NCBI GenBank assembly: GCA_902601785.1
Contig: CACKOH010000002.1
Span: 1 to 64,000 of the forward strand
Direction: 5' to 3'
Length of the DNA stretch: 64,000 nucleotides
DNA from: an uncultured Pelagibacteraceae bacterium
GTDB taxonomy: Bacteria > Pseudomonadota > Alphaproteobacteria > Pelagibacterales > Pelagibacteraceae
Shown: piece after piece, positions 34,220 to 52,808 of the stretch
Layout: each line of letters opens with the position of its first letter
How positions within the stretch are numbered: position 1 is the first letter of the stretch
The notes under the pieces: generated by a model
The model's input: the letters and a program-made list of their open reading frames with translations, nothing else
Databases searched by the model: none
Told to the model about the DNA's origin: nothing
Made by a program: the position numbers and the translations under genes

Positions 34220-34318
34220 AATTTATAATTTTTAATTATTACAAAATATGTAGACTAAAATGTTTTGTTTACTACATATATTTTGACCTACATTGGACAA
34301 CATTAATATACAACTTTT

Positions 34319-34330
34319 AATTGTACAATT
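34319..34330. promoter_or_regulatory. 12-bp perfect palindrome in the divergent aminotransferase/tauA-like intergenic region; candidate operator
   Basis: AATTGTACAATT equals its own reverse complement, in a 211-bp divergent intergenic region. Function is inference. Confidence 0.35.
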
Positions 34331-34430
34331 GATTTATTTGCACACCAGCTTTTCGTCATAAAGTGTTTTACTTCTATCTAAAATTGAATTTAAATATGCT
34401 CAATTTAATTAATTAAACATAGGGGAATAA

Positions 34431-35372
34431 ATGAAAAAATTATTAACTTTTATTCTAGGATCTATACTTGCGCTTAATCTATCTATTTCAGTTGCAAATT
34501 CAGCTGCAAAAGAAGTAAGAGTTGCATATTTTCTAGAATGGCCAAGTCCTAACCTAGAGGACATGCAAAAGAAAAATTTTGCTAAAGCTCTTGGAGTTCC
34601 AGTTAAATGGACAAACTTTACAAATGGTGGGGCAATGACTGATGCTATGTTAGCAGGAGATATTGATATTTCTTACTCACAAGGTTTAGTGCCTTTCATC
34701 AACGCTGTAAAATCAAATGCACCAATCAAACTGGTCGATATTGCTATGGAATACGGAATGGGTGGAACAACTTGTGTTACATCTAATGCTTCTGGAATTA
34801 CTAAAGCAAACGGTTCAGAGTTAGAAGGTAAAAAAGTTGCTGTGCCACTTGGAACAATGGCTGAATACGTTTTCGATGAAAGTATGAAGGTTGTTGGAGC
34901 TGACAGAAGTAAAATGGATATAATTCAAATGGATCCTGAAGAGGGTGCTGCTGCATTAGTTAGTGGTGATGTTGTAATGGCATGTTTATTTGGTGGTAAC
35001 TCTATCAAAGCTGCAGTTGCTGTTGGTTCTAGATTATTGACAGTTCAAGAAGCTAGAGATGCGGGTATCTTAGGAATAGATATTACTTCTGTAACAGATA
35101 AGTTTATGAAGGAAAATCCAGGAATGTTGAGAACTTTTATTGAAGTAACTCATGAAGCAAACGATAGATATAGAGCTGGTAAAAGTGATATGAACTCTAT
35201 GTCAAAAGCTTCTGAAATGAAAGTTGCTGATATGAAAGAAACTCTAGATGGATTTAAATTCTTAACTCCATCTGAAACTAAACAGTCTATGGAAAGTGGT
35301 AACCTTGATGGTTTCCTAAAAGGAATGGGAACACCAGGTGGAGCTGTAGATACAAGTTTCCTACCTTTATAA
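34431..35372 (+). CDS. Taurine/sulfonate-type ABC transporter substrate-binding protein
   Basis: Signal peptide; VRVAYFLEWPSPNLEDMQKK; NGGAMTDAMLAGDIDISYSQGLVPFINAV. Confidence 0.82.
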   Translation: MKKLLTFILGSILALNLSISVANSAAKEVRVAYFLEWPSPNLEDMQKKNFAKALGVPVKWTNFTNGGAMTDAMLAGDIDISYSQGLVPFINAVKSNAPIKLVDIAMEYGMGGTTCVTSNASGITKANGSELEGKKVAVPLGTMAEYVFDESMKVVGADRSKMDIIQMDPEEGAAALVSGDVVMACLFGGNSIKAAVAVGSRLLTVQEARDAGILGIDITSVTDKFMKENPGMLRTFIEVTHEANDRYRAGKSDMNSMSKASEMKVADMKETLDGFKFLTPSETKQSMESGNLDGFLKGMGTPGGAVDTSFLPL

Positions 35373-35392
35373 TTTTAAAGGTTTAAAATTTA

Positions 35393-35431
35393 AATAGGCG
35401 CCAATTATAATGATTGGTGCCTATTTTTTTT
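35393..35431 (+). terminator. Hairpin with U-tract between binding protein and ATPase genes
   Basis: aataggcgccaat/attggtgcctatt 13-bp stem (one G-U pair), 7-nt loop, followed by an 8-nt T-run. Confidence 0.85.
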
Positions 35432-35456
35432 ATAAAATTCTAATATAAGGTAGTTA

Positions 35457-36254
35457 ATGAGTGATCTTATTTCCGAAAATCTAAACATGATTTTTAAAAC
35501 TCCAAAAGGAGAAACGGTTCACGCATTAAAAGATGTAAGTTTTACTCTAAAAAAAGGTGAGCTACTTACTGTCCTTGGACCTTCGGGTTGTGGAAAGACA
35601 ACTTTGTTAAATATTACTGCTGGTTTTTTAAGACCTACTTCTGGAATAATTACTCTTAATAATAAAGAGATAGATGGCCCTGGAGTTGAAAGAGGAATGG
35701 TATTTCAACAAGGTGCTTTGTTTGAATGGCTAACAGTTGCTGAGAACGTAAATTTTGGACTTAGGATGAAAAAAGAAGATCCTGGAGTTACAGCAAAAAG
35801 AGTTGAAGAATGGCTAGACATTGTTGGTTTAAAAGGTTTTGGAAATACACCTACTTATCAGCTATCGGGTGGTATGCAACAAAGAGTTGCTCTTGCAAGA
35901 TGTCTAATTAATGATCCCGATTTAATTTTAATGGATGAACCATTAGGTGCATTGGATGCATTAACAAGAGAAAAGATGCAGTCATTAGTTTTAAAAATTT
36001 GGAAAGAAACTGGAAAAACAATTATTTTAATTACTCACTCTGTTGAAGAAGCTCTTTTGCTTGGTGAAAGATTATATGTAATGGCACCAAGACCTGGAAG
36101 AATACATAAAGAGTACAATCTCCCATTTGCTGAAATGGGGCTTACTCAAGATTTAAGAGAAATTAAAAAAAATAAAGAATTTTCATCTACTAGAGAAGAA
36201 ATTTTATCCATGATCTGGAATATGGAAGAAGAAATAATGGGGAAAGAAAATTAA
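35457..36254 (+). CDS. ABC transporter ATP-binding protein, taurine/nitrate type
   Basis: GPSGCGKTTLLN Walker A; LSGGMQQRVALARCLINDPDLILMDEPLGALDALTREKMQ. Confidence 0.93.
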   Translation: MSDLISENLNMIFKTPKGETVHALKDVSFTLKKGELLTVLGPSGCGKTTLLNITAGFLRPTSGIITLNNKEIDGPGVERGMVFQQGALFEWLTVAENVNFGLRMKKEDPGVTAKRVEEWLDIVGLKGFGNTPTYQLSGGMQQRVALARCLINDPDLILMDEPLGALDALTREKMQSLVLKIWKETGKTIILITHSVEEALLLGERLYVMAPRPGRIHKEYNLPFAEMGLTQDLREIKKNKEFSSTREEILSMIWNMEEEIMGKEN

Positions 36255-38179
36255 TGTTAACCCAATTTATAACAATACTAATTATCGTATCCGTTATTGG
36301 CTGTATTCTTTATGGGAGAAGATTAATTAGAACTGAAAAAGTAGATGCTGTTTTTGGAAATCCAGAAAGAGCCAAAGGTGGAACGCACTGGGTAATTGTA
36401 GGTAGTAGTGCTATCCTGATGCTGTGGCTTTATTATTCATGGGATATTGCAAAAGGTTTTTATCCAAAATCAGCAAATGAATTATGTCAGGTTGCTAAAA
36501 TTAATGAGTCTTTATTAGGTCTAAAATATCAGTTTCCTATTGAGGAAAGAGAATTCAAAAGCACGTCCATTATTAAAATTGAAAATAAAAATCTTATAAA
36601 AATTGCTAACGAAATAAAAGGATCTCCAGATCTAAATGATCAGCAAAAGACAATCCTAGTAAGTTACATTGATAGAACTTCTAAATTAATTCCATTTTTA
36701 ACAAGTGAAGAGCTAATGGAAATGGATACCAAAATCAAAATTAAGGAGATGACAGAAGAAATAAAAATTCTAAGTTCTAATTTCCAGAAGAAAGGTTATC
36801 CATTTGAGACAGACTCTCAAAAAACTGAGAGACAGAAACTTGTTGATGAACAAGGTGGCTGGGGAATTACAACAATAGACTCTGGAACAGGTACAATTGA
36901 AAATACTATTGAGATACCAACCGCACCTCAAACTAATAAAGGTTTAAAATTTCATGCAGCAGCAACTGAACTAAAAAAAATTGACGACAAATTTTTTAAA
37001 TTAAAAAACCATAACCCACAGTTCAAAAGCTCAATAAAACAACTTAAAGATGATATTAAAGCTTACAGAAAAGGTTTAGATGATAGTGAAGAAATAGCAT
37101 CTGACTATGCAAAAAATATTGTTAAAATTGCAAGAAGAATAGAGTTTGCAAGCATCTTTCCTCCCAATGCATTAAATGAAATGCAAGCAGCAATAATAGA
37201 GTTTGATGAATTACAAAATAAAGAGCAAGCTGGATTAAGATTAATTGATATTCTTCTATTTCCAGCTGGAACAATTGTAGCAAGTGGACCAACATGTTCT
37301 GAGCAAGGTTCAGGTAGATGGTTACCTAAACCATCAGATACATTTAATAAGTTTGTATTGATGTCTAAACCAAGTATTGGATACAAAAATATTCCTCTTT
37401 TATGGATTGAGATGGTTGATGTAAGTAAAATGATTGGATTTATTTTACCTGATTGGATAGCAGACATGTTGCCTGGTGAATATCCAGTGCATACAAAAGA
37501 TGGCATTGTAAAAGAAAACTTTAAAAGTAACGTTTTAAAAGTTGTTACTGGTGACTTTAAATTATTTAAAGTGCCTGTTCCATACGGACACATATGGGAC
37601 TCATTCTTAAGGGTATTTTTAGGTTTAGTTTTTGGAATTGTTATTGGAGTACCATTAGGATTATTTATGGGTCTAAATCGATTTGCTAAAGGCTTCTTTG
37701 ATCCTTTAATCGAATTATACAGACCTGTTCCTCCATTAGCTTGGGCGCCATTAATTATTTCAGTTCTTGGAATAGATAATACGGGTAAAATATTTTTATT
37801 ATTCATGGTCTCTCTTTCAATTATGATTATTTCTGCAAGAGCTGGTGCATCAGGAACACAGCTTTCAAAAATTCATGCTGCACACTCATTGGGGGCTACA
37901 AAAAAACAGATATTAAGATATGTGATTTTTCCAAATTCACTTCCTGAAATTCTTACTGGCATTAGAGTGGCTGTTGGTATGTGTTGGGGAACACTTGTTG
38001 CTGCAGAATTTTTAGCAGGTACAACTGGTATTGGTTTCGTCGAAAACGTTGCTAAAAAATACTTTCAATATGAAGTTATTTGGATAACTATATTTATTAT
38101 GGGTTTACTAGGCCTTTTATTTGATATTACTTTAAGAAAAATTATTGAAAAAACTATTCCTTGGCGTGGTAAAGGGTAA
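36254..38179 (+). CDS. ABC transporter permease, taurine type, with about 400-residue N-terminal extension
   Basis: Permease core with EAA loop (AHSLGATKKQILRYVIFPNSLPEILTGIRVAVGMCWGTLVAAEF) preceded by two hydrophobic segments and a long soluble region. Confidence 0.88.
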   Translation: MLTQFITILIIVSVIGCILYGRRLIRTEKVDAVFGNPERAKGGTHWVIVGSSAILMLWLYYSWDIAKGFYPKSANELCQVAKINESLLGLKYQFPIEEREFKSTSIIKIENKNLIKIANEIKGSPDLNDQQKTILVSYIDRTSKLIPFLTSEELMEMDTKIKIKEMTEEIKILSSNFQKKGYPFETDSQKTERQKLVDEQGGWGITTIDSGTGTIENTIEIPTAPQTNKGLKFHAAATELKKIDDKFFKLKNHNPQFKSSIKQLKDDIKAYRKGLDDSEEIASDYAKNIVKIARRIEFASIFPPNALNEMQAAIIEFDELQNKEQAGLRLIDILLFPAGTIVASGPTCSEQGSGRWLPKPSDTFNKFVLMSKPSIGYKNIPLLWIEMVDVSKMIGFILPDWIADMLPGEYPVHTKDGIVKENFKSNVLKVVTGDFKLFKVPVPYGHIWDSFLRVFLGLVFGIVIGVPLGLFMGLNRFAKGFFDPLIELYRPVPPLAWAPLIISVLGIDNTGKIFLLFMVSLSIMIISARAGASGTQLSKIHAAHSLGATKKQILRYVIFPNSLPEILTGIRVAVGMCWGTLVAAEFLAGTTGIGFVENVAKKYFQYEVIWITIFIMGLLGLLFDITLRKIIEKTIPWRGKG

Positions 38180-39184
38180 GTGAAGACACAAACTCTAAAA
38201 AAACAAGTCATTAAAATATTCCAAAAATTTGGTCTTAGTAAAGATAATGCTTTAATTTCTTCTAATGCATTAATTAATGCAGAATTGGTTGGTGCATATG
38301 GACATGGTTTATCAAGACTTAAGATGTACTGTGACCGAATTTCAAAAAAAGTAATTAATCCAAAACCAAAAATTAAAATTAAAAAAATTTCATCTTCTAT
38401 TTCCCATATTGATGCAAATAATTGTATTGGATTTGTTGCTGCTGATCTTGGAATTAAAACTGCAATTAAACATGCAGAAAAAACTGGTATAGGAATGGTA
38501 GCAGTCAAAGGTAGTGGCCACTATGGTTTATCTGGTTATTACGCAGAACAAGCAGTAAAGAAAAATTTAATAGCCATGATTTATACAAATGCTCCTCCAG
38601 CAGTTGCTCCTCATGGTGCATTAAAAAGTTTGTTTGGAACAAACCCTATATGTTTTGGAGCTCCAACTGGAACAAAAATTCCTTTTATATTGGATACCTC
38701 AATCTCTATGATTAATAGAGGTAAAATAAGAGTTGCTGCAAGAAATAACCAAAAAATTCCTGAAGGTGTTGCTTTAGATAAGTTTGGTAAACCAACTAAT
38801 GATGCAAAGAAAGCATTAGAAGGTGTTCAGCTACCTATTGCAGGATTTAGAGGATCAGGTCTTGCTTGGATGGTGGATATTTTAAGTGGAGTTATAACAG
38901 GTGGAAATCATGCAGGACGAGTAAAAGATCCATTCGATGATTTTTCTGGACCACAAAACATTGGACATTTATTCATCACCTTTAAAGCAAATTTATTTCA
39001 AAAAAATTATAATCAGAGAATAAAAGATAATATTAAAACAATTAAAAAACTTCCAAAAATTAAAGGTGTAAAAGAAATAATGTATCCAGGACAAAATAAG
39101 TTTTACAGATATAAAAAGAATTTTAAAAAAGAAATTGCTATTTCAGATATAATTAGAAAGGATTTGGAAACCTTAATAAGTTAA
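38180..39184 (+). CDS. Ldh family (malate/L-lactate/sulfolactate dehydrogenase-like) oxidoreductase
   Basis: GAYGHGLSRLKMYCDRI; GIGMVAVKGSGHYGLSGYYAEQA; APHGALKSLFGTNPICFGAPT. Confidence 0.88.
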   Translation: MKTQTLKKQVIKIFQKFGLSKDNALISSNALINAELVGAYGHGLSRLKMYCDRISKKVINPKPKIKIKKISSSISHIDANNCIGFVAADLGIKTAIKHAEKTGIGMVAVKGSGHYGLSGYYAEQAVKKNLIAMIYTNAPPAVAPHGALKSLFGTNPICFGAPTGTKIPFILDTSISMINRGKIRVAARNNQKIPEGVALDKFGKPTNDAKKALEGVQLPIAGFRGSGLAWMVDILSGVITGGNHAGRVKDPFDDFSGPQNIGHLFITFKANLFQKNYNQRIKDNIKTIKKLPKIKGVKEIMYPGQNKFYRYKKNFKKEIAISDIIRKDLETLIS

Positions 39185-39370
39185 CATAGTCAAAGCACCC
39201 AAAGATACTACTACTGTAGACAAAATAATTGTTCTTTTTACTTTCTCTTTTCTCTTTTGTTCAATTAGTCTTTGCTTAAGAACATCTACGTTCACTCTAA
39301 GAGGAGCCTCAGTTTCCTGAGTGGGGTCTTCAACAACGTTAGATGTTCTATTTAAGCCTTCATTATTCAT
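39173..39370 (-). CDS. Small single-TM protein of unknown function
   Basis: 65 aa: LRVNVDVLKQRLIEQKRKEKVKRTIILSTVVVSLGALTMLTY; resembles the 29019..29228 product. Confidence 0.55.
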   Translation of the reverse strand: MNNEGLNRTSNVVEDPTQETEAPLRVNVDVLKQRLIEQKRKEKVKRTIILSTVVVSLGALTMLTY

Positions 39371-39472
39371 TAATTTATTAAATCATGTGATGATAACATT
39401 TGATATATTAGGAGAGTCCAATTTGGGTTGATATTCATTCTTTAATAGTTCAAAATAGTTGTAGAGATAACA

Positions 39473-40465
39473 ATGACATCAATACCTAGCGTTTCAGCTC
39501 AAATTGACCAGAAAGAAATTTTCAATGTTATTAGTAATAATTTTAGCAAATTAGCTCCAGCCTATTATTTTTTAATCAGCAATTGGTTAATACGAGCATA
39601 TAATGTTCATAAAGATATAGATAAATATATAATTGTTATTTATCTAATTAATAAAGATTTGATCGTTTTTAGAAGAAACGGGTTAATTGTTGATTACGAT
39701 ACATTTTACAAAGATAGATCAATAGAAATTGAGAAAATAAATTTAAGCGACATTTCAAAAGACTTAGAAATACCTAAAGAAAGCGTAAGAAGGAAAATAT
39801 TAGAATTAGAAAAAGCATCTGTAATTAAAAAATCTGGAAAAAAAGTGTTTGTTAATAGGAGCACACTAGTTGCTACCCAAGCAATAGATACCCTAAAAGA
39901 TATGAGCTCTCTGTTATTCCATTTTAATAAATTATTAAAAAATGAAAAAACTTTTACTGTTGATGAAATTTCATCCTCTATGAAGGAAAATTTTTCTTTT
40001 TGCTGGTATCAATTTTATAAATTTATATTTACTTATACCAACAGGTGGAGAAAAGAAGTAAAGGATCTGGAAACTATGTGTATTGGAATATTGGTAATGC
40101 TAAATGCATCTCACAATAAGAGTTTCAAAGTAAAGGACTTAAACTTAAAAACATATCAAAAAAAAGTTATGGGCTCAGATGATAGAGGTATTAATGCCAT
40201 GTCTTTATCTGATATTACTGGAATTCCAAGGCCAACTGTTGTTAGAAAATTAAAATTCTTAGTAAAAAACAATTATATAACTATTAACGACAAAAAACTG
40301 CTTTTTATAAATATTCAAGGTACAAATTTAAAACGAAGTAGTGAATTACAAGATGCTAATATTAAAAGCTTAAGTAATTTTATTTATAAAGTATTTAATC
40401 AAATTAAAATTATAGACTCTGGTAAAGATAAAGATGACGACTTTATTCCTAGTTATTTGAGATAA
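39473..40465 (+). CDS. Putative transcriptional regulator with two winged-helix-like segments
   Basis: Two HTH-like stretches: INLSDISKDLEIPKESVRRKILELEKASVIKKSGKKVFVN and MSLSDITGIPRPTVVRKLKFLVKNNYITINDKKLLFIN. Confidence 0.6.
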   Translation: MTSIPSVSAQIDQKEIFNVISNNFSKLAPAYYFLISNWLIRAYNVHKDIDKYIIVIYLINKDLIVFRRNGLIVDYDTFYKDRSIEIEKINLSDISKDLEIPKESVRRKILELEKASVIKKSGKKVFVNRSTLVATQAIDTLKDMSSLLFHFNKLLKNEKTFTVDEISSSMKENFSFCWYQFYKFIFTYTNRWRKEVKDLETMCIGILVMLNASHNKSFKVKDLNLKTYQKKVMGSDDRGINAMSLSDITGIPRPTVVRKLKFLVKNNYITINDKKLLFINIQGTNLKRSSELQDANIKSLSNFIYKVFNQIKIIDSGKDKDDDFIPSYLR

Positions 40466-41311
40466 TTAATTATTTTTTCTTAAGATATAAATAAAAATAA
40501 ATCCAGTTACATACATCAGCAGTGCATAGGCACCTGTTGGTATTATATAAGCTACCTCATCAAATATTAATGTTGCAACAAACACTGCTAAAGTTCCATT
40601 CTGTAGACCACACTCTAATGCAATACATTTTTGTTGTGCTGTCCCTGATACAAACTTTTTAGCAATAAAATATGCTAATACCATCATAACAACGTTTAAA
40701 ATTAATACAGCTAAACCTGACTGAGCAAGGTAAGTAATAATATTATCTTTTTCTTCAATCCATATTGCAATAAATACTATTACAAATAACCAACCTGTTA
40801 ATTTATTAATTAAATTAATTTTAGATAAAATAAAATTTTCAGCAAAACCTCTTATAATCATTCCAATAATTACAGGGACTGTAACCACTAATGCCATTTT
40901 CAAAGCAATTCCGATTACTGAAATTTCTTTTGCAATGGTAACTCCTAAAATCTCTGCTGAGTTAATTACAATTATTGGAATACTAATAATACAAATTAAA
41001 CTAGTTACCGCAGTTAAAGAAATGGATAAAGCTACATCTCCATTAGCAAATTTAGTTAAAACATTTGAAGTAACACCACCAGGTGCAGCTGCAATTATCA
41101 TTAAGCCTACCGCTATAGCTGAAGGAAGATCAAGACTTAGTGCAATGATTAAAGCAACAATTGGTAACAAAATTAATTGAGATAAAAAACCTACAATAAA
41201 ATCTCTTGGTGTTTTTAATATTCTAGTGAAATCTTTAATTGAAAGACCAAGACCCAATCCTAACATTATTAGAGCTAAAACTATCGGAGCAATTTTAGTA
41301 ACTATTTCCAT
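40466..41311 (-). CDS. Bile acid:sodium symporter (BASS) family transporter
   Basis: LGLGLSIKDFTRILKTPRDFIVGFLSQLILLPIVAL; AAAPGGVTSNVLTKFANGDVALSISLTAV; ECGLQNGTLAVFVA. Confidence 0.88.
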   Translation of the reverse strand: MEIVTKIAPIVLALIMLGLGLGLSIKDFTRILKTPRDFIVGFLSQLILLPIVALIIALSLDLPSAIAVGLMIIAAAPGGVTSNVLTKFANGDVALSISLTAVTSLICIISIPIIVINSAEILGVTIAKEISVIGIALKMALVVTVPVIIGMIIRGFAENFILSKINLINKLTGWLFVIVFIAIWIEEKDNIITYLAQSGLAVLILNVVMMVLAYFIAKKFVSGTAQQKCIALECGLQNGTLAVFVATLIFDEVAYIIPTGAYALLMYVTGFIFIYILRKNN

Positions 41312-41397
41312 TATAAGTCAACATACAAGATTATACCTTAAAGATATTAAAATATTTTTCTATGTACATGGGCATTATTTTCCCATATTTGTAGCAA

Positions 41398-42309
41398 ATG
41401 CTCTCAAATAAAGAAATCATTTGTCCCAATAATCTGCTTGACGTTGCACATAAGAAAAAAGGTGTTAAAGCAGCAGTTGTAAATGCAGGAATGCCCTTGC
41501 CAATGCTATCTGTTCAAGATGCTGTTAAAGAAAATTTAATTGAGCCAATTTTTATTGGAGACAAAAAAGAAATTGAAAAATGTGCTGAAGATTTAAAATG
41601 GGATATTTCTCAATATGAAATTATTGATGAGCCTGTAGAAAATAATACAGCTCCTATAGCAGCTAAACTAGCAAGTAAAGATAAAGTAAAGATTATTGTT
41701 AAAGGTCATATTCACACTGACATTTTAATGAAAGAAGTACTAAAGCGTGAATATAATTTAATGGGTAAAACTAGATTAAGTCATATATGGCACATGACTA
41801 TTGAAAAAGAAGATGCGCCATTAATTATTACTGATGGTGCCTTAAATGTATTGCCTAATATTAAAACAAAAATGCACATTCTTAAGAACGTCGTAGACTT
41901 CTCACACAGAATTGGTATTCCTCGACCTAAAGTATCTATATTATCAGCAACAGAAGAAGTAATTGAGAGTGTTCCTACTTCATTAGAGGCAGCAGAACTC
42001 ACGAAATTAGCAGAAAAAGAAAATTTAAATGCTGATGTATTTGGCCCTCTAGCTTTTGATAATAGTATTTCAAAAAAATCAGCAACTATCAAAGGTATAA
42101 AAAATTCAGTAGCAGGAGAGGCAGATGTGCTATTAGTTCCTAGTGTTGAAGCAGGAAACGCTTTAGTAAAAATGATGATATATTTTATGGGTGCTTGTGC
42201 TGCGGGTGTTGTGATTGGTGGCAAAGTTCCAGTGGTAATTACAAGTAGATCTGATGAAGCTCCAGCAAGATTGGCTTCTATTGCTGCAGCAGTAGTTGCT
42301 CTTGACTAA
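41398..42309 (+). CDS. Phosphate acetyl/butyryltransferase family protein
   Basis: GHIHTDILMKEVL; GKTRLSHIWHM; ITDGALNVLPNIKTK; LLVPSVEAGNALVKMMIYFMGACAAGVVIGGKVPVVITSRSDEA. Confidence 0.88.
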   Translation: MLSNKEIICPNNLLDVAHKKKGVKAAVVNAGMPLPMLSVQDAVKENLIEPIFIGDKKEIEKCAEDLKWDISQYEIIDEPVENNTAPIAAKLASKDKVKIIVKGHIHTDILMKEVLKREYNLMGKTRLSHIWHMTIEKEDAPLIITDGALNVLPNIKTKMHILKNVVDFSHRIGIPRPKVSILSATEEVIESVPTSLEAAELTKLAEKENLNADVFGPLAFDNSISKKSATIKGIKNSVAGEADVLLVPSVEAGNALVKMMIYFMGACAAGVVIGGKVPVVITSRSDEAPARLASIAAAVVALD

Positions 42310-42369
42310 TTGATTCATTGATATTTTTATTAAATTCATTTAAGTAAATAATTTATTTAGAAAAATATA

Positions 42370-43656
42370 ATGGCAATAACATATTTAAAAAAATCTCCAA
42401 AAACATCTTCAACAGATGATACTAAGACTAGGGAAATTGTTGAAAATATTCTCAAAGATATAGAAAAAACTAAAGAAGAAGGTTGCAAAGCACTCTCAAA
42501 AAAGTTTGATAAATATGAAGGAGATGTAATTGTTTCAAAAGAAAAAATTGAGGAAATTAAAAAAAATTTAGATCAAAAAACAAAAGATGACATTCAGTTT
42601 TCTCATGAAAGAGTTAGAAAATTTGCTGAGGCACAATTAAAGAATTATGGTCAAGACTTTGAGGTAGAATTATCAGATGGTTTATATGCTGGCCAAAAAT
42701 TAATACCAGTTAACACCGCAGGTTGCTATGTGCCGGCTGGTAGATATGCTCATATCGCATCAGCCGTAATGAGTGTTACAACTGCTAAAGTAGCTGGAGT
42801 AAAAAACATAATTGTAGCTAGCTCACCAAAACCAGGTGTAGGAGTTCACCCTTCTATTGTTTATACTGCTGATCTTTGTGGTGCAGACTCAATATTAAAC
42901 CTTGGAGGTGTACAAGCTATTGCAGCAATGACTAACGGCTTATTTGGTAACGAACCTGCAGACATGTTAGTTGGACCAGGAAATCAATTTGTAGCAGAAG
43001 CAAAAAGAATTTTATTTGGAAAGGTTGGAATTGATTTATTTGCAGGACCAACTGAGATCGCAGTAATAGCTGATGATAAAGCTGACGAAGAACTTGTTGC
43101 AGTTGACTTAGTTGGTCAAGCTGAACACGGATATAACTCACCAGCGTGGTTATACACAAAAAGTAAAAGAATTGCAGATTATGTGATTAAACGGGTTCCA
43201 GAATTAATCGCTGAACTTCCAGATTTACCAAGAGAGAACGCTGGTGCAGCATGGAGAGATTATGGTGAAGTTATTTTATGTGACACTGATGAGGAAATTG
43301 CCACTATCAGTGACGAATATGCACCTGAACACTTAGAAGTACAAACTCAAAACCTTGATTGGTACCATAAAAGATTGAAGAATTATGGATCTCTATTTAT
43401 TGGTGAAGAAACAACTGTTGCTTATGGTGACAAATGTTCAGGGACCAACCATATTTTACCTACAAAGGGTGCAGGTAAATATACAGGAGGATTATTTGTT
43501 GGTAAATTTATAAAAACTTTAAGTTTCCAAAGAATGTCAAAAGAATCTACAAAAACTGTAGGAGCAGCTTGTGCTAGAATATCTAGATACGAAGGTATGG
43601 AAGCTCATGCAAGAACTGGTGATGCTAGATTAAGAAAATATGGCTTTCAAAATTAA
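42370..43656 (+). CDS. Histidinol dehydrogenase-family protein, likely sulfopropanediol 3-dehydrogenase (HpsN)-like
   Basis: GCYVPAGRYAHIASAVMSVTTAKVAGVKNI; NLGGVQAIAAMTNGLFG; DLVGQAEHGYNSPAWL; GTNHILPTKGAGKYTGGLFVGKF. HpsN vs HisD is from memory of the families plus gene context. Confidence 0.75.
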   Translation: MAITYLKKSPKTSSTDDTKTREIVENILKDIEKTKEEGCKALSKKFDKYEGDVIVSKEKIEEIKKNLDQKTKDDIQFSHERVRKFAEAQLKNYGQDFEVELSDGLYAGQKLIPVNTAGCYVPAGRYAHIASAVMSVTTAKVAGVKNIIVASSPKPGVGVHPSIVYTADLCGADSILNLGGVQAIAAMTNGLFGNEPADMLVGPGNQFVAEAKRILFGKVGIDLFAGPTEIAVIADDKADEELVAVDLVGQAEHGYNSPAWLYTKSKRIADYVIKRVPELIAELPDLPRENAGAAWRDYGEVILCDTDEEIATISDEYAPEHLEVQTQNLDWYHKRLKNYGSLFIGEETTVAYGDKCSGTNHILPTKGAGKYTGGLFVGKFIKTLSFQRMSKESTKTVGAACARISRYEGMEAHARTGDARLRKYGFQN

Positions 43657-44708
43657 GATTTAATTCTTTTTCCAGTTTCATCAAAAACAAAAATATCTTT
43701 AGAATTAAAGCCGATTGTATTGTCTATATTGTGTTTGCTAGATATTTTAGCACTTATTTCATATTGATCTATTTTAATATAAGCAATTTTTTCATTACCT
43801 AAATTTTCAATTAAATCTACTTTTGGATTGAAACTATATTCATTATTTTCTGATACATTAAAATGTTCGGGTCTTATACCCAGGTAATAATCTTTTTTAG
43901 AAAAATTTAATTTGTCTAGTTTAACTTTATTACCTAAGAAATAAATTTCATTATTTGAGATTATATGATCACTACTTATTTTAAGGATATTCATTTTTGG
44001 AGTTCCAATAAATTGAGCTACAAAAATATTAGCAGGATCGCTATAGATTTCATCAGGTGTGCCTACCTGTTCAATATTTCCATGATTTAATATAACTATT
44101 CTATCAGCTAGTGTCATTGCCTCAACTTGGTCATGTGTTACATAAATCATATTTGTTTTAATTTGGTTATGTAGTTTAGAGATTTCAACTCTCATTTCAG
44201 CTCTAAGAGCAGCGTCAAGGTTAGATAATGGCTCATCAAATAAAAAAATCTTAGGATTTCTTGTTATAGCTCTTCCAATTGCAACCCTTTGTCTTTGACC
44301 CCCCGAAAGTTGTTTTGGTCTTCTCTCAAGCAGTTCTTCAATTTTTAAAATTTTTGCAGCCTGCATTACTTTTTTTTCAATTTCTTCCTTTGGTCGCTTT
44401 TCTATTTTAAGACCAAAAGACATGTTTTCAAAGACATTCATATGTGGGTACAACGCATATGATTGAAAAACCATTGCAGTTTCTCTTTTTGAGGGATGTA
44501 ATTCATTAACTAATTGATCATTAATATATATTTCACCTTCATCTATCTGTTCCAATCCAGCAATCATTCTTAACAAGGTAGACTTTCCACAACCCGATGG
44601 ACCAACCAAAACTAAAAATTCATCTTCTTTTCCCTGAAGATTAAAATTATTTATTATTTTATTTGTTCCAAAGGATTTATGAATGTTGGTAAATTTTATG
44701 TTTGACAT
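43653..44708 (-). CDS. Carbohydrate-type ABC transporter ATP-binding protein (MalK/UgpC family)
   Basis: GPSGCGKSTLLRMIAGLEQIDEGEIYIN; LSGGQRQRVAIGRAITRNPKIFLFDEPLSNLDAALR; C-terminal regulatory domain (LGIRPEHF). Confidence 0.93.
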   Translation of the reverse strand: MSNIKFTNIHKSFGTNKIINNFNLQGKEDEFLVLVGPSGCGKSTLLRMIAGLEQIDEGEIYINDQLVNELHPSKRETAMVFQSYALYPHMNVFENMSFGLKIEKRPKEEIEKKVMQAAKILKIEELLERRPKQLSGGQRQRVAIGRAITRNPKIFLFDEPLSNLDAALRAEMRVEISKLHNQIKTNMIYVTHDQVEAMTLADRIVILNHGNIEQVGTPDEIYSDPANIFVAQFIGTPKMNILKISSDHIISNNEIYFLGNKVKLDKLNFSKKDYYLGIRPEHFNVSENNEYSFNPKVDLIENLGNEKIAYIKIDQYEISAKISSKHNIDNTIGFNSKDIFVFDETGKRIKS

Positions 44709-45796
44709 TATAATTTTTTAATTAATTCAAAAATATCAACCCCAATTTGTTTTAATATATGGGCGATGTCTATAGGGACCCAATTCTCTCTTATTTTTCC
44801 CTCATCATGATGGTAGAAATCCATGACTCTCATTGTAACATTTTGGTTTTCAGCGGTATAACCAAGCCAATCATTTTTTCCATAATTTGCATCTAAGCTG
44901 TGCCACCCAGCGCAAAGTGAAAATTTTCCATCTCCTATTTCACAGTAATGGCCTAATTTAAAGTAATCCCTCTGACTAAAAGACTTTCTAAAAGGTAATT
45001 GATGCATATCTATAAATCCTTCTAAACTTCTTGATGTTCCAATCCCACATGGCCCATACCAAATCATATCTTTGTGCCAAAATTCTTTTTGTGGATGACT
45101 TAAAAGTCTATCTTTTAATTCTTGATCAGTTAAATTTTCTAATTCTGGCTTATAATTTAAACTTCTATTCATTTCCATGGCTTGTCTTAAATTATTTTTT
45201 GAAACATTAAAATCTTCCTCATAAAAATCTAAACCATCTGCATTATATGGACTAAGCCATGAACCTTCAGATCCTCTAGATTTATTAATGGGCCAAATCC
45301 CCAATTGTCGAATAAAATCTAGGGTATCAATAAGAATATGGCTTTCAATTATTTTTCCATTTTTTATTTCATGAATTTCACAGCATCTTAAGTTTATCAT
45401 TTTAAAATTTGGATTAACTCCGAGCCAAGGATTTTTGAATATTCCAGATAGTGTTGAAATTGATCCTACTTGAATCTTATCCCTAAAAGCACCACCAACA
45501 ACCATTAATTCTCTTCTTTCTAAATCTGGAAATGCTTTAAACAATGGTTCATAAAATTTACTTTTTAAATTATCTAAACTATCAAATTCATTAATTGGAT
45601 GAAAACAATTTACTTTTAAATCTTTGTCAAAGAGTTTTTGTAAATTTTTTTCTAGATTTTTATTTTTATTATAAAAAATTTTTTTAAGTTCATTTCTTAC
45701 AAAGAGTTTGTTTGTGTGATTTTCTTTTGGAGAAAGATTAATATCCTTTATATCTTTCTTTGATTTTAATCCTGTATCAAATTGTTCTATAAGCAT
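44708..45796 (-). CDS. Tandem SnoaL/NTF2-like domain protein
   Basis: Two NTF2-like halves: ...MINLRCCEIHEIKNGKIIESHILIDTLDFIRQLGIWP and ...MRVMDFYHHDEGKIRENWVPIDIAHILKQIGVDIF. Confidence 0.75.
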   Translation of the reverse strand: MLIEQFDTGLKSKKDIKDINLSPKENHTNKLFVRNELKKIFYNKNKNLEKNLQKLFDKDLKVNCFHPINEFDSLDNLKSKFYEPLFKAFPDLERRELMVVGGAFRDKIQVGSISTLSGIFKNPWLGVNPNFKMINLRCCEIHEIKNGKIIESHILIDTLDFIRQLGIWPINKSRGSEGSWLSPYNADGLDFYEEDFNVSKNNLRQAMEMNRSLNYKPELENLTDQELKDRLLSHPQKEFWHKDMIWYGPCGIGTSRSLEGFIDMHQLPFRKSFSQRDYFKLGHYCEIGDGKFSLCAGWHSLDANYGKNDWLGYTAENQNVTMRVMDFYHHDEGKIRENWVPIDIAHILKQIGVDIFELIKKL

Positions 45797-45845: not shown

Positions 45846-46790
45846 ATGAATTTAAAATTAGCAAAATTTTCAGATCTTGTCCCAAGTAAACTTCCATTTG
45901 TAGAAGGGAAGCTCGAGGGACATAAAAATAGAAAAAACTATTCAATTGTAGGTCCAGGAGTGGCAGAAGATATAAGCCAATCAGTTAAAATTTCTAGACC
46001 ACATAGTTTTAATTTGGGTGCTGTTTCTGCAATGCCAAGAAATGGCTCTGGCTTACACAGTCATACAACTGCTGAAGTTTTTATTATTTTTTCTGGAAAA
46101 TGGAGATTTTACTGGGGCAATGAGGGTAAGGATGAAACCATTTTAGGTGCTGGAGATATTATTTCAATGCCTACAAATATGTTTAGAGGATTTGAAAATG
46201 CAGGTGATCAGGAAGGAACCATGTTTGTAGTGCTTGGTGGAGATGATCCTGGAATAATTACTTGGCTACCAAGCGTATTAGAAAAAGCAAAAACAACTGG
46301 TATGGCACTTTTAAATGATAACACTTTAATTGATTTGTCCAAAAATAATATTCCTAAAGATAAAACACTTCTTAGTCCAATATCTTCAGAAGAAATTAAA
46401 AAATTTGATAATTATAACTTAAGTGAGATTGAAAAATTTATTTGCAAGTTTTCTAAAAGAAATAATCATGAAGTTAAATTAAATGAAAATTTTAAAATAA
46501 GCCAAATAATTGGTAGCCATTTCCAGAATAAAACTTTCTCTCCTATTATAAATCAAAATACTGGATTTAATTTATCAATTTTAAAGTCAAAAAAGGGTAA
46601 AATAAATAATTTAAAATTCTCAAAGCCAACAGTGATGTTTTCACAAATAGGCTCATGGCATATACAAATTGAAGATTTTGAAGTAAATCTCAATTCTAAA
46701 GACACGATTTCAATTCCAATAAATTCAAATGTAAATATTAGTATAGACAGTAAAGAAGAAAGTTTATTAAACTGCGTAACTCAAATCTAA
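45846..46790 (+). CDS. Cupin domain protein, apparently bicupin
   Basis: N-terminal cupin motif (GSGLHSHTTAEVFIIFSGKWRFYWG...AGDIISMPTNMFRGFEN); C-terminal half looks like a degenerate second cupin. Confidence 0.78.
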   Translation: MNLKLAKFSDLVPSKLPFVEGKLEGHKNRKNYSIVGPGVAEDISQSVKISRPHSFNLGAVSAMPRNGSGLHSHTTAEVFIIFSGKWRFYWGNEGKDETILGAGDIISMPTNMFRGFENAGDQEGTMFVVLGGDDPGIITWLPSVLEKAKTTGMALLNDNTLIDLSKNNIPKDKTLLSPISSEEIKKFDNYNLSEIEKFICKFSKRNNHEVKLNENFKISQIIGSHFQNKTFSPIINQNTGFNLSILKSKKGKINNLKFSKPTVMFSQIGSWHIQIEDFEVNLNSKDTISIPINSNVNISIDSKEESLLNCVTQI

Positions 46791-47752
46791 TGAAAGGTTT
46801 TGATAAAAAATATAAAAGTTTTCCTGATTATATTCTTAAAATTACAAAACAAATTTGGGAAGGTAAAGACGTTAATTCTATTGCTAATTATTATACTGAA
46901 GATATTCCAGTGAGGTCTCCATTTGGAGTAACCTATGGTAATAAGCCAGTTATAGATGCAACATTTGCAACTTTAAGAGAATTTCCAAATAGACAATTAC
47001 TAGGTGAAGATGTTATTTGGAACAAAGACGCAGAGGATGGTTATCATTCATCTCATAGAATTTTAAGTAAAGGTACTCACCTTGGAGATGGTTTATATGG
47101 AAAACCATCTGGTAAAAATATTTATTATAGAGTTATTGCTGATTGTGCGTGTAAAAATAATCAAGTTTATGACGAATGGATTGTAAGAGATCAAGGAGCT
47201 ATGGTAAGACAAATAGGTTTTACTCCTAAAGAATTTGCTCAAAAAATTATTGAAAACGAAGGTGGTTTAGAAAATTCTAAAAAAATATTTACTTTAAAAT
47301 CTGACATGAAATCAGAATACAAACCAAATCCTGCACCCAAAGACTCAGTTGGAGTAAAATATTCAAATATACTCAATACAATTTTTACCAATGATTATAA
47401 TTTTTCTGATTACGCAAGGGCAGCAAGTATTTACTGGCCAGGAAATAAAATTGGCCATGGAAGAGAAGATATAGAGAAATTTTGGCAATCACTAAAGGGA
47501 GCTTTTAGTAATTTTAAATTTTCAATTGAACATATTGGATATTTAGAGGAACAAGGTAAAAATCCTAAGGCATCCATAAGATGGTTTTTGGATGCAAATC
47601 ACTCAAATAAAACGTCAGACTTTGGAGAAGCAACAAATAAAAATATTTTTATAATGGGGATTAATCATGCTGAGATAAGTGATGGGAAAGTTATAAGAGA
47701 ATGGGTTTTGTTTGATGAAGTGGCTATATGGAAACAAATTTTAATGAATTGA
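46790..47752 (+). CDS. Tandem SnoaL/NTF2-like domain protein
   Basis: YYTEDIPVRSPFGVTYGNKPVIDATF...YDEWIVRDQGAMVRQIGF; second half HGREDIEKFWQSL...GINHAEISDGKVIREWVLFDEVAIWKQIL. Confidence 0.75.
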   Translation: MKGFDKKYKSFPDYILKITKQIWEGKDVNSIANYYTEDIPVRSPFGVTYGNKPVIDATFATLREFPNRQLLGEDVIWNKDAEDGYHSSHRILSKGTHLGDGLYGKPSGKNIYYRVIADCACKNNQVYDEWIVRDQGAMVRQIGFTPKEFAQKIIENEGGLENSKKIFTLKSDMKSEYKPNPAPKDSVGVKYSNILNTIFTNDYNFSDYARAASIYWPGNKIGHGREDIEKFWQSLKGAFSNFKFSIEHIGYLEEQGKNPKASIRWFLDANHSNKTSDFGEATNKNIFIMGINHAEISDGKVIREWVLFDEVAIWKQILMN

Positions 47753-47755
47753 TTT

Positions 47756-48883
47756 ATGGGTAAAATTAAAACAACTCATGTAGGAAGTTTGCCTAGATCA
47801 TATGAATTATCAGACCTTTTATTTAAGAAAGACCAAAATCAAAAAATTGACTTAAATAAATTTGATCAAATAGTTAGTAGAGATGTAAATGAGGTAGTTA
47901 AAAAACAAATTAATGTAGGTATAGATATTGTAAGTGACGGTGAAATGTCAAAGATCAGCTATGCAACTTATGTTAAAGATAGATTGGACGGTTTTTCTGG
48001 TGAAAGTGAAAGAAAAGCACCTAAAGATTTAGATGACTTTCCATCTTACAAGGAAAGAATTGCAAGAACAGGTGGTACACCTAAATATACAAGACCATGT
48101 TGTACTGGTGAGCTCAAAATAAAAGATAAATTATCTTTAACTAAAGATATTAGTAATTTTAAAGAAGCATTAAATAAAAATAATCATAAAACTGGTTTTA
48201 TGAATGCTGCATCTCCTGGTGTTATATCTGCTTTTTTACCAAATAAATTTTATAAAAACGATGATGACTATTTAGAAAATTTATCAAATTTAATGAAAGA
48301 GGAATACGAAGAAATTACGTCAAATGGAATAAAATTACAGTTGGATTGTCCTGATTTAGCTCTGGCAAGACACATGACTTTCAAAGATTTAGATGAAAAA
48401 GAATTTTTGATTAGAGCAGAAAAACAAATAGAGTGTCTTAACAATGCTATAAAAAATATTGATAGTTCTAACATAAGGCTTCATATCTGTTGGGGAAATT
48501 ATGAAGGTCCTCATTTACATGATATTCCTTTAGAAAAGATAATGCCAATTGCATTAAAAGCTAATGTTCAAACCTACTTAATTGAGTCATCTAATCCAAG
48601 ACATTCTCATGAGTGGCAAATTTTTGAAAATTTAAAAGTTCCAGATGATAAAATAATTGCCCCAGGTGTAATAGACTCAACGACTAATTTTGTAGAACAT
48701 CCCGAGGTTGTAAAGAATAGAATTTTAACTTTTTCTAAAGTCATTAATGCAGAACAATTATTAGCAGGAACAGATTGCGGATTTAGTACTTTTGCTGGCT
48801 TTGGAAATGTTGATGAAAATATAGTTTACAAAAAACTTGAGTCTTTGGTAAGGGGTTCAGAACTTGCGTCAAAAGTGATTTAA
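47756..48883 (+). CDS. Cobalamin-independent methionine synthase (MetE)-like / epoxyalkane:CoM transferase-like protein
   Basis: KTTHVGSLPRSYEL; VSDGEMSKISYATYV; putative Zn ligands in HICWGN and GTDCGF. Confidence 0.85.
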   Translation: MGKIKTTHVGSLPRSYELSDLLFKKDQNQKIDLNKFDQIVSRDVNEVVKKQINVGIDIVSDGEMSKISYATYVKDRLDGFSGESERKAPKDLDDFPSYKERIARTGGTPKYTRPCCTGELKIKDKLSLTKDISNFKEALNKNNHKTGFMNAASPGVISAFLPNKFYKNDDDYLENLSNLMKEEYEEITSNGIKLQLDCPDLALARHMTFKDLDEKEFLIRAEKQIECLNNAIKNIDSSNIRLHICWGNYEGPHLHDIPLEKIMPIALKANVQTYLIESSNPRHSHEWQIFENLKVPDDKIIAPGVIDSTTNFVEHPEVVKNRILTFSKVINAEQLLAGTDCGFSTFAGFGNVDENIVYKKLESLVRGSELASKVI

Positions 48884-48966: not shown

Positions 48967-50187
48967 ATGAGAAAAATACTTGTTACTTTATTGTTTCTAA
49001 TTTTTGGAACATCTGCATTTGCAGATTGTAACATTAAAAGTGGATCAATAAATATTTTGGCTAATGATTTTCCTGCATTGAGAACTTTCGTTGAAACTTC
49101 TAAACAATGTAAAGGAAATGCTGATTTTAAAGTGACTCACTCATCTGAGCATAATAAAATCGCAGTGCCAGCATTAACTGCAAACCCTTCTGAATTTTCA
49201 GCAAGAATTGCTGCAAACAGTTCGATTGTTCCTTTAATGAACCAAGATTTGATAAGACCACTAGATGATCTTGTTAAAAAATATGGAAAAGGAATTCAAG
49301 ACTCTCAGTTAATTACAATTGATGGAAAAGTAATGGCTGTTGCATTTATGGCTAATACCCAGCACTTGTATTATAGAGAAGATATTTTAAAAGATATGGG
49401 TATAGCTGTACCAAAAACATATGAGGAAGTTGTTGCCGCTTCTGAAAAAATTAGAGCTTCAGGAAAAATGCAACATCCATATGCAGCTGCTTATAAAGCT
49501 GGCTGGAACTTAGCAGAAGAATTTGTAAACATGTTTATTGGTCATGGTGGTGAATTCTTTAAATCTGGAAGTGCAGAACCAAACATTAATAACGCTAAAG
49601 GTATTGCAACTTTAAATATGTTAAAAAAATTATCTGAATTAAGTAATCCTGATTACTTAACTCATGATAGTGAAGCAATTAAAGTAGAATGGGAATCTGG
49701 AAATGTTGCATTAATGACTTTGTGGGCATCTAGATCAGGAACTCTTTTAGATGATGAAGGTGATCCAAATATTACTAAAGCAACAAAACTAGCTGGACCT
49801 GCCACTGTTGGTGGAGGAAATATTCCAGCAGCTACACTATGGTGGGATGGTTTTACTCTCGCGAAAAATAGATCAGATGCTGATGCAGATGCTACATTTA
49901 GAGCTTTAGCACATGCAGCATCAAATAAGAAAATGGTTGCAGACGCTGCTGATCAAGCTGTTTGGTTAGTAGAGGGATTTGTTCCAGGACCAAAATCTAT
50001 TGGTGTAATCGAGGCTGTAAAAATGAAAGCAAAACCATATCCAATGTTGCCACAAATGGGATTAATGCATGGTGCATTAGGAAGTGAGATTGTTGAGTTT
50101 TTACAGGGTAAAGAGTCTGCTGAACAAGCATTGAAAGACGTTGAGGCTGCTTATATCAGTAAAGCTAAAGAACAAGGCTTTCTATAA
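48967..50187 (+). CDS. Carbohydrate-type ABC transporter extracellular solute-binding protein
   Basis: Signal peptide; MANTQHLYYREDILKDMGIAVPKTYEEVVAASEKI; VEWESGNVALMTLWASRSG. Confidence 0.9.
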   Translation: MRKILVTLLFLIFGTSAFADCNIKSGSINILANDFPALRTFVETSKQCKGNADFKVTHSSEHNKIAVPALTANPSEFSARIAANSSIVPLMNQDLIRPLDDLVKKYGKGIQDSQLITIDGKVMAVAFMANTQHLYYREDILKDMGIAVPKTYEEVVAASEKIRASGKMQHPYAAAYKAGWNLAEEFVNMFIGHGGEFFKSGSAEPNINNAKGIATLNMLKKLSELSNPDYLTHDSEAIKVEWESGNVALMTLWASRSGTLLDDEGDPNITKATKLAGPATVGGGNIPAATLWWDGFTLAKNRSDADADATFRALAHAASNKKMVADAADQAVWLVEGFVPGPKSIGVIEAVKMKAKPYPMLPQMGLMHGALGSEIVEFLQGKESAEQALKDVEAAYISKAKEQGFL

Positions 50188-50236: not shown

Positions 50237-51265
50237 ATGCCCAATAAAACATTTTTTTGGTTTTTTTTACCAACAGGTTTAGCAATGATCCTGTTTATAG
50301 GGCTACCAATAATATCAACTGGTATACAATCATTTTATGCGCAGCATGATCAAATAGTAAAAGAAGTTAAAAAATGTGATCCATTTGGGTGTACCGTTTC
50401 AATTGTTGTTGATAATGAGGAAACCTCTAAAATTAGAGAAGCAAAGCCTCTTGGAAAATTTAATGGTTTTGGAACTTATACTGACAGAAATCATTTGGCA
50501 GTTGATGAAATAAAAAAATTTTGGAATGAGACTGAGAGTGTTAGTGCTTTTATAGATCAGGTTACCAATCTTCCTTTTTATAAAGCTTTAATATTCACTT
50601 TAACATACTGTTTATTTGTAACCCCGAATGTGCTTTTGTTAGGTTTTATAATAGCACTAAGCTTAAATGCAGTTGCCAGAAAAATTAGGGGACCATTAAT
50701 TTTTGGCACAATTTTACCCATGATAGTAACTCCTTTAGTTGGTTCTTTGGTTTTATTTTGGATGATTGATTCTCAAGGAATAATTGGTGCAAATATTCAA
50801 AACTTGATGAATGATCCTTATTTATCCCTTAAGTCCTCAAAAACATTAACTTGGATTACAATAATTATTTATGGTATTTGGCATCACTCCCCTTTTGCAT
50901 TTGTAGTATTTTATGCCGCTCTTCAAACAGTCCCTCAAGAACCAGTAGAGGCAGCTATTATTGATGGTGCATCAAGATTTCAAAGAATTAAACACATTGT
51001 GTTACCTCATATATATCCAGTGGTTACTTTTGTAGCATTGATCTCTTTAATGGATAATTTCCGAGTTTTTGAACCAATAATTGGATTTAGTGCAGAAGGA
51101 AGTGCACAATCTTTATCGTGGTTAATTTACGATAATCTAGTTAATGAAGAAGTAATATTATTCGGCTCTGCTGCAGCAACTTCCATTATGACTATAGTTG
51201 GTATAGCAATTTTGTTAGCTCCTGTTTTGATAAGAACTTGGAAAGAATTTAGGATAGCAAGATAA
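50237..51265 (+). CDS. Carbohydrate-type ABC transporter permease (MalF-like)
   Basis: Multiple TM segments; EAA loop EAAIIDGASRFQRIKHIVLPHIYPVV. Confidence 0.9.
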   Translation: MPNKTFFWFFLPTGLAMILFIGLPIISTGIQSFYAQHDQIVKEVKKCDPFGCTVSIVVDNEETSKIREAKPLGKFNGFGTYTDRNHLAVDEIKKFWNETESVSAFIDQVTNLPFYKALIFTLTYCLFVTPNVLLLGFIIALSLNAVARKIRGPLIFGTILPMIVTPLVGSLVLFWMIDSQGIIGANIQNLMNDPYLSLKSSKTLTWITIIIYGIWHHSPFAFVVFYAALQTVPQEPVEAAIIDGASRFQRIKHIVLPHIYPVVTFVALISLMDNFRVFEPIIGFSAEGSAQSLSWLIYDNLVNEEVILFGSAAATSIMTIVGIAILLAPVLIRTWKEFRIAR

Positions 51266-51267
51266 TT

Positions 51268-52149
51268 ATGGATTATGGATTAGATAAAAAAACGACAAGT
51301 TTAAAAACTTTCAATACAATTTTTATAATTGTCTGGCTTTTGATTGCTTGTTTTCCATTTATTTGGACATTTTGGGGGTCATTTAAAGTAAGAGCTGATT
51401 TTTTTTCCAGATCAGATTGGTGGTATGCTATTTCAGCTTTTAATACTTTAATTGAAACTGGAGGAAAATTTACTACAAACGCCTATAGTCAAGCATGGAC
51501 TGAAGGAGAGTTTTGGAAGGCATCAAAAAATACTATTATTGTTACTATTTTTGTTGTTAGTATTTCTTTATTCCTAGGAACACTAGGTGCGTACGCTCTA
51601 TCAAGATCTACAAGAAATTATGCGTTTTGGTTATTAATTCTAGCTTTAATTTTTAGAGCGATGCCACACATAACTTTAGTATCTGGTTATCTGTTTCCAT
51701 TTTTTGAACTTCAAATTTGGGGAATATTACCTACAACAATTGTTGTGTTGGTTGCTATTAATCAACCATTTACGCTATGGCTTCTATATTCCTTTTTTAA
51801 AACAGTGCCTAGAGAACTTGATGAGAGTGCCTTAATAGATGGATGTTCATATTTTCAAACTTTCAGACACATTATAATGCCAGTAATGTGGCCAGGGGTG
51901 ATAACTGCGGGCTTGTTTAGTTTAATGTTAGCTTATAATGATTTTACAGTAACTGCATTGCTATTGAATCAGGAAAATCACACAATGGTACCAAAGATAC
52001 AAAGTTATTTAGGAACAAACCAACATGAGGGAAATTTAATGTGGGCCGTATCATCTGTTGTATCAGCCACAGCTCCTCTTTTTATTTTAGTAATGTTTTT
52101 TCAACGGCAAATTATTAGTGGTCTGACAGCTGGAGCTATTAAAGGTTGA
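51268..52149 (+). CDS. Carbohydrate-type ABC transporter permease (MalG-like)
   Basis: EAA loop ESALIDGCSYFQTFRHIIMPVMWPGVITAGLFSLMLAYNDF. Confidence 0.9.
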   Translation: MDYGLDKKTTSLKTFNTIFIIVWLLIACFPFIWTFWGSFKVRADFFSRSDWWYAISAFNTLIETGGKFTTNAYSQAWTEGEFWKASKNTIIVTIFVVSISLFLGTLGAYALSRSTRNYAFWLLILALIFRAMPHITLVSGYLFPFFELQIWGILPTTIVVLVAINQPFTLWLLYSFFKTVPRELDESALIDGCSYFQTFRHIIMPVMWPGVITAGLFSLMLAYNDFTVTALLLNQENHTMVPKIQSYLGTNQHEGNLMWAVSSVVSATAPLFILVMFFQRQIISGLTAGAIKG

Positions 52150-52808
52150 CAAAATATAAGGCTTTATTATTTGGATCAATCGGGACCATTGTTGAAACAT
52201 CTGAAATTCAAAGAAAATCATTTAATAGCGCATTTAAAATTGCTGGTCTTAAATGGAATTGGACAAAAGAAATTTACAAAAATTTACTCAATAAATCTGG
52301 GGGCGAGGAAAGAATATTGAGATATGCAAAACAAACTAAAAAAAATATTAATTCCAAAAATATAATCAAATTAAAAACAAAAATATTTAATAGCTACTTA
52401 AAAAAAAATAAACTTAAATTAAGAAGTGGCGTTAAGGAAATAATAAAATATTGTAAAAAACAAGAAATCAAACTAGCTTTAGTTTCTTCAACCTCCAAAA
52501 ATAATATAAATTCAATTTTTTTTTGTTTAAGGGATAGTTTAAATAAAAAAGATTTTGATTTTATTGGTAATTCTAAATTAGTTAAAAAACTTAAACCATC
52601 TGCTGAAATATATAAATTGGCTTTAAAAGAACTTAGGCTAAAACCCAAAGAGTGTATTGCAATAGAGGATACACAGGAAAGTCTCAATTCTGCAATAAAA
52701 GCTAAATTGAAATGTTTTATTTTTCCTGGAAATTTTCACAGGTCAAAAAAATTTAATGGTGCGTTTAAAGAAGTAAGTAAAATAAATAAGAATATATTTA
52801 AATCTTAA
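52146..52808 (+). CDS. HAD-like protein lacking the canonical DxD nucleophile motif
   Basis: TTG start overlapping the permease stop; KYKALLFGSIGTIVETSEIQRKSFNSAF aligns with HAD motif I but DxD is replaced by GSI; later HAD features kept (LALVSSTSKNN, KLKPSAEIYKLALKELRLKPKECIAIEDTQESLNSAIKA). Confidence 0.78.
   Translation: MTKYKALLFGSIGTIVETSEIQRKSFNSAFKIAGLKWNWTKEIYKNLLNKSGGEERILRYAKQTKKNINSKNIIKLKTKIFNSYLKKNKLKLRSGVKEIIKYCKKQEIKLALVSSTSKNNINSIFFCLRDSLNKKDFDFIGNSKLVKKLKPSAEIYKLALKELRLKPKECIAIEDTQESLNSAIKAKLKCFIFPGNFHRSKKFNGAFKEVSKINKNIFKS

Follow-up and report, generated by a model that had tools for sequence, protein, structure and literature searches.

A conserved CbbY-related HAD-IA subfamily lacking both motif I aspartates, encoded beside an ABC importer in SAR11 bacteria

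A HAD gene at the end of an ABC importer cluster

We analysed a 64,000-nucleotide stretch of DNA from an uncultured Pelagibacteraceae bacterium (contig CACKOH010000002.1, positions 1 to 64,000; the window), in which a gene for a HAD-fold protein directly follows those for a solute-binding protein and two permeases of an ABC importer (Table 1). The HAD gene, from its start codon on, and permease 2, up to its TGA, share the 4 bp at 52146–52149, as the first-pass annotation had described. Between 44708 and 47752, two different two-domain SnoaL-like proteins flank a cupin, with a short MetE-C-like protein next to them, and this SnoaL/cupin/MetE-C-like cluster is conserved in SAR11 and other alphaproteobacteria.

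The HAD protein matches the Pfam family HAD_2 at 1.3e-23, and an AF2 model built from an alignment of 27 sequences (pLDDT 83.5, pTM 0.81) finds its best PDB fold match in CbbY (4uat, TM 0.82), placing the protein in the C1-cap HAD-IA class with a Rossmannoid core and a C1 helical cap. CbbY, a xylulose-1,5-bisphosphate (XuBP) phosphatase (Rhodobacter sphaeroides, PDB 4uar/4uat; plant AtCbbYA, 4uav), is also its closest solved relative by sequence, at 3e-36 with the single sequence and 4e-53 with a profile.

Table 1. Features at and around the HAD gene; coordinates are those of the window and percentages refer to 64 family representatives.
Feature	Coordinates	Strand	Remarks
HpsN-like (R)-DHPS (sulfopropanediol) dehydrogenase	42370..43656	+	cluster neighbour
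UgpC/MalK-like ABC ATPase, probable transporter motor	43653..44708	-	related ATPase adjoins HAD in second lineage
Two-domain SnoaL-like protein	44708..45796	-	same cluster as transporter
Cupin (45846–46790), two-domain SnoaL-like (46790–47752) and MetE-C-like (47756–48883) proteins	45846..48883	+	syntenic in SAR11
ABC solute-binding protein (SBP_bac_1)	48967..50187	+	
ABC permease 1 (UgpA-like)	50237..51265	+	
ABC sugar-type permease 2 (BPD_transp_1)	51268..52149	+	directly upstream of HAD in 70/70 Pelagibacteraceae-type loci
GxIG HAD protein, C1-cap HAD-IA fold, CbbY-related, without motif I aspartates	52146..52808	+	220 aa, TTG start; stop ends at 52808
Gly10-Ser11-Ile12-Gly13, replaced motif I (CbbY Asp-Val-Asp-Gly)	52173..52184	+	alignment, site table
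Ser19-x-x-Gln22-Arg23	52200..52214	+	Ser19 and Gln22 instead of Glu and His fixed in DxD relatives
Ser115-Thr116, motif II phosphate-binding Ser/Thr	52488..52493	+	retained
Lys150, motif III Lys	52593..52595	+	retained (98%)
Glu174-Asp175, motif IV acidic pair	52665..52670	+	retained (100% / 95%)

Motif I and the remodelled pocket

The gene had been described as encoding a HAD fold in which the catalytic DxD is replaced by GSI, and alignment with CbbY bears this out. The motif I stretch of the window protein, YKALLFGSIGTIVETSEIQRK, aligns with AILFDVDGTLAETEELHRR in CbbY, such that Asp-Val-Asp-Gly-Thr pairs with Gly-Ser-Ile-Gly-Thr, and Gly10 and Ile12 stand at the positions of the nucleophile Asp and the acid/base Asp respectively. 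We compared 64 representatives (90% identity) of the family sharing this motif, here GxIG, with 32 DxD representatives. The nucleophile position is Gly and the acid/base position (+2) is Ile in 64/64 GxIG representatives. The change goes further than the two aspartates noted at first; two other pocket residues are replaced too, the Glu by Ser19 in 97% of GxIG representatives and by Thr in the rest (Ser/Thr in 100%), and the His by Gln22 in 100%, leaving neither the pocket Glu nor the pocket His of CbbY.

The downstream HAD features, which had been judged intact, are indeed present in the window protein (S115/T116, K150 and E174-D175), and among GxIG representatives T116 is conserved in 100%, K150 in 98%, E174 in 100% and D175 in 95%. 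Cap and pocket positions are similarly conserved (R56 100%, K77 95%, and W37, W39, G52 and G53 100%). GxIG and DxD proteins have in common E17, R23, N27, W37, W39, Y44, G52, G53, R56, K77, T116, K150, E174 and D175, and the cap signature (WxW, GG..R, K77) and motifs II–IV are shared with CbbY itself. Whereas CbbY has DVDGT together with a pocket Glu and His, GxIG proteins combine GSIG with a Ser and a Gln. Two positions are less constrained in GxIG, the Thr of motif I (58% Thr) and the Glu within the GGKER signature of CbbY. No newly fixed acid, His or Cys was found near the old nucleophile among the 64 GxIG representatives, and the sole acid gained, at position 98, lies within a helix of the AF2 model. 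Two SAR11 copies (L085 1501–2142 and L086 1498–2148) keep GSIG and motif IV without the motif III Lys-Pro, which weakens a universal anion-binding role for K150.

Because two defining features of catalytic HAD proteins and the pocket features of CbbY are missing, we place GxIG in a HAD-IA subfamily of its own, predicted not to be a phosphatase. The beta-phosphoglucomutase subfamily (TIGR02009, TIGR01990), whose members are active DxD enzymes, belongs to the same HAD-IA superfamily and its match to the window protein is significant, but the scores fall far short of the curated cut-offs (75.4 vs 153.35 bits for TIGR02009 and 66.5 vs 189.4 bits for TIGR01990).

Extent, descent and genomic setting of the GxIG family

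Scanning genome contigs, we recovered 70 close loci, of which 68 are from Pelagibacteraceae or Pelagibacter and two from Alphaproteobacteria, and all 70 carry GSIG. More families were added through searches of Alphaproteobacteria and of the orders around distant members, with whole-genome scans confined to Pseudomonadota. The FGSIGT variants that the first-pass annotation mentioned for other alphaproteobacterial HAD proteins do exist: in 156 alphaproteobacterial locus entries, which contain a few duplicate copies of one gene and comprise 64 distinct sequences at 90% identity, the motif is GSIG in 142, GAIG in 13 and GSVG in one, counts that cover the fetched loci; the remaining matches, whose motif was not read, score in the DxD range. 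Against the family profile, all 156 GxIG entries score at least 206 bits and recovered DxD homologues at most 176.5 bits, and no forms intermediate between the two were seen among the recovered homologues. A single branch (support 100/97) of an unrooted 94-row tree parts all GxIG rows from the DxD rows. The form without the motif I aspartates is nearly invariant across many marine alphaproteobacteria.

Pairwise dN/dS over 171 SAR11 pairs has a median of 0.17 and a maximum of 0.28. Within the four-residue motif every synonymous codon for Gly (four) and for Ile (three) occurs, so the constraint acts on the protein. Between the 64 GxIG representatives, pairwise identity extends down to 28%, with the motif still fixed except for Ser/Ala. 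Both catalytic aspartates have been lost while the rest of the site is preserved, under purifying selection; this is the conserved non-canonical family that had been suggested, and the homologues of the GxIG clade lack DxD, the window copy not being a lone degenerate one. The GxIG subfamily most likely has a single origin, in a sugar-bisphosphate phosphatase resembling CbbY. We draw this ancestry, on a tree whose root is not fixed, from the fact that DxD is the state of the active enzymes and is found far more widely. Since GxIG seems to have arisen once, and its close active outgroup has a known structure, the question of how an enzyme pocket may become a receptor is directly testable. The HAD superfamily is among the largest of enzymes, and annotation pipelines label members of the fold hydrolases; an example is the Roseobacter litoralis copy, annotated 'HAD-IA family hydrolase'. 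GxIG is sharply set apart, is under purifying selection and should not be named phosphatase.

The gene had also been assigned to the transport operon. Permease 2 lies directly before the HAD gene in 70/70 Pelagibacteraceae-type loci; the two overlap in 58, and in the other 12 the HAD match starts 9–12 bp later, making the overlap common but not universal. In a second lineage (f176) the HAD gene is immediately upstream of a related ATPase and solute-binding protein in 15/15 loci, and identity to the window transporter, where longer regions were read, is 51–53% for the solute-binding protein and 53–65% for the permeases. The same ATPase-SBP-permease set is found about 1 kb from the HAD gene in one locus (L143) of the f110 family. 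An SDR gene adjoins HAD in two other genomes, one of which (L141) has HpsN-like, SnoaL, cupin and MetE genes close by. Linkage is absent from the Rhodobacteraceae loci read and, with few exceptions, from those of two other families, so that regulation of a transporter cannot be the general function; the operon assignment holds as a lineage-specific one, and we rejected family-wide transporter linkage. Rhodobacteraceae neighbours vary, including TrkA-TrkH on plasmid pROLI81 of Roseobacter litoralis (by which f24 is taken to be the roseobacter family) and, in two genomes, a TauD-like dioxygenase named by eye. On pROLI81 (L247 12989–15753) the GxIG gene stands directly 3' of the TrkA/TrkH-type potassium uptake genes, and genes for mechanosensitive channels are close by.

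Among 201 genomes of the same genus the permease is present in 36 and the HAD gene in 33, and HAD without permease in none (Fisher p ~1e-34, which ignores shared ancestry and has descriptive value only). The three permease-only genomes comprise a contig end (G004), a truncated permease match (G1129) and a clean absence of HAD (G1170); in the last of these, an intact permease is followed after position 2379 of locus L259 by other sequence, constituting a natural knock-out. In genome G1225 (contig C10:1255–2703) there are stop codons in both permease 2 and the GxIG gene, which suggests that the cluster is being lost jointly in this genome.

Proposed function and alternatives

In HAD chemistry an aspartyl-phosphate cannot form without the nucleophile Asp, and with this intermediate impossible we infer that GxIG proteins are phosphatase-dead; XuBP phosphatase activity is predicted to be absent. 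On balance we favour GxIG being a phosphatase-dead, ligand-binding, CbbY-related HAD subfamily, probably regulatory, that in SAR11 would signal to or gate the importer or catabolism. The protein probably binds a metabolite instead of cutting one, and the anion-binding residues kept in the pocket (Thr116, Lys150, Arg56 and Lys77) point to a small ligand that is phosphorylated or anionic in some other way. In SAR11 and the second lineage this ligand would most likely, if speculatively, be an intermediate to which the imported compound is converted, and the ligand-bound protein would signal to or gate the transporter or catabolic enzymes through protein-protein contact. We infer the regulatory step solely from operon position and co-occurrence, and SAR11 genome G1170, which retains the permease, argues against a transporter regulator. 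In SAR11 the protein is a likely accessory part of an uncharacterised importer cluster. A more specific version, which we consider rather unlikely in full, is that removal of three acids and one histidine turned the pocket of a Mg-dependent sugar-bisphosphate phosphatase into that of a cytoplasmic receptor, which recognises an anionic catabolite (of phospho-sugar or C3 sulfonate type) and couples nutrient breakdown to the ABC importer; if true, an anionic-catabolite receptor would be tied to an importer in some of the most abundant bacteria of the ocean.

The PcrP/PA2803 subfamily of Pseudomonas has lost its nucleophile, lacks activity and binds protein partners, and is described as a phosphonatase lineage with a truncated cap, loss of residues from all motifs and a distribution exclusive to pseudomonads (PMC12632274). 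GxIG proteins keep a full cap and motifs II–IV and are nearest to CbbY, and are therefore not PcrP members, although by analogy they may likewise work by binding. Our literature search for the GxIG family in SAR11 or for HAD pseudophosphatases gave no match, PcrP being the sole bacterial non-catalytic HAD analogue found.

A possible alternative, though one we would not bet on, is that GxIG proteins are still enzymes that operate without an aspartyl-phosphate, with Glu17, Lys77, Lys150, Glu174 and Asp175 together with Ser19/Gln22 catalysing isomerisation, elimination or hydrolysis of an anionic sugar- or sulfonate-like substrate. Few positions in the whole family are more conserved than the pocket residues, the replacements by Gly, Ile, Ser and Gln are fixed in a uniform, coordinated way that resembles neofunctionalisation, and the neighbours are catabolic (SnoaL, cupin, MetE-like and HpsN-like by profile; SDR- and aldehyde-dehydrogenase-like); retention of Lys150 and the motif IV acids is also strong enough to leave room for some Mg-dependent chemistry. 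Against this, the invariant Ile at the acid/base position comes with no newly fixed acid, His or Cys near the site, and we know of no HAD enzyme that works without the motif I Asp. It is very improbable that a working phosphatase persists with Ser11, Ser19 or Glu17 as substitute nucleophile, even though position 19 is always Ser or Thr and Ser11 occurs in 81% of representatives: Ser11, which we rejected, is Ala in 12/64, Ser19 takes the place of the CbbY pocket Glu and not of the nucleophile, Glu17 is shared with DxD relatives and hence is no replacement, and the general acid is lost as well. Supply of the nucleophile by a different residue, which the first-pass annotation had named as a way in which its reading could fail, thus finds no plausible candidate.

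The HAD protein could also serve the structure or assembly of the ABC transporter, as a chaperone-like protein or an additional subunit, and keep its pocket only as a relic. Co-occurrence, and the overlap with the permease 2 stop that most SAR11 loci show, agree with this, but the strong constraint on pocket residues, the Rhodobacteraceae that carry the family without the transporter and the SAR11 genome with a permease and no HAD render it improbable. There is next to no chance that the gene is degenerate or reflects a local assembly error. Motif I is lost and the relative in G1225 is broken, but the same motif in 70 Pelagibacteraceae-type loci and further families (156 locus entries, fixed down to the lowest identities) excludes chance or misassembly, and dN/dS and conservation rule out decay.

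For the ligand-binding role that we favour, the pathway served by the importer is of interest. Literature on solute-binding proteins gave no lead to the importer substrate, and the window solute-binding protein has a single weak solved relative, 5iai; literature on homarine and DHPS was followed as leads for the pathway. The HpsN-like gene matches sulfopropanediol dehydrogenase at 1.9e-155, and HpsN activity has been reported in SAR11 (PMC11131964). This supports DHPS for the neighbouring HpsN-like gene only and, even with a taurine-type region further upstream, does not identify the importer substrate. The region 32873–43656, with an aminotransferase, a TauA/TauB/TauC-like transporter, a ComC-like dehydrogenase, a phosphate acyltransferase and the HpsN-like dehydrogenase, is apparently a sulfonate-use region, as judged by look and homology with HpsN and the acyltransferase profiled. 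At 641 aa, the product of its TauC-like permease ORF (36254–38179) is over twice as long as usual and has a long non-permease N-terminal part.
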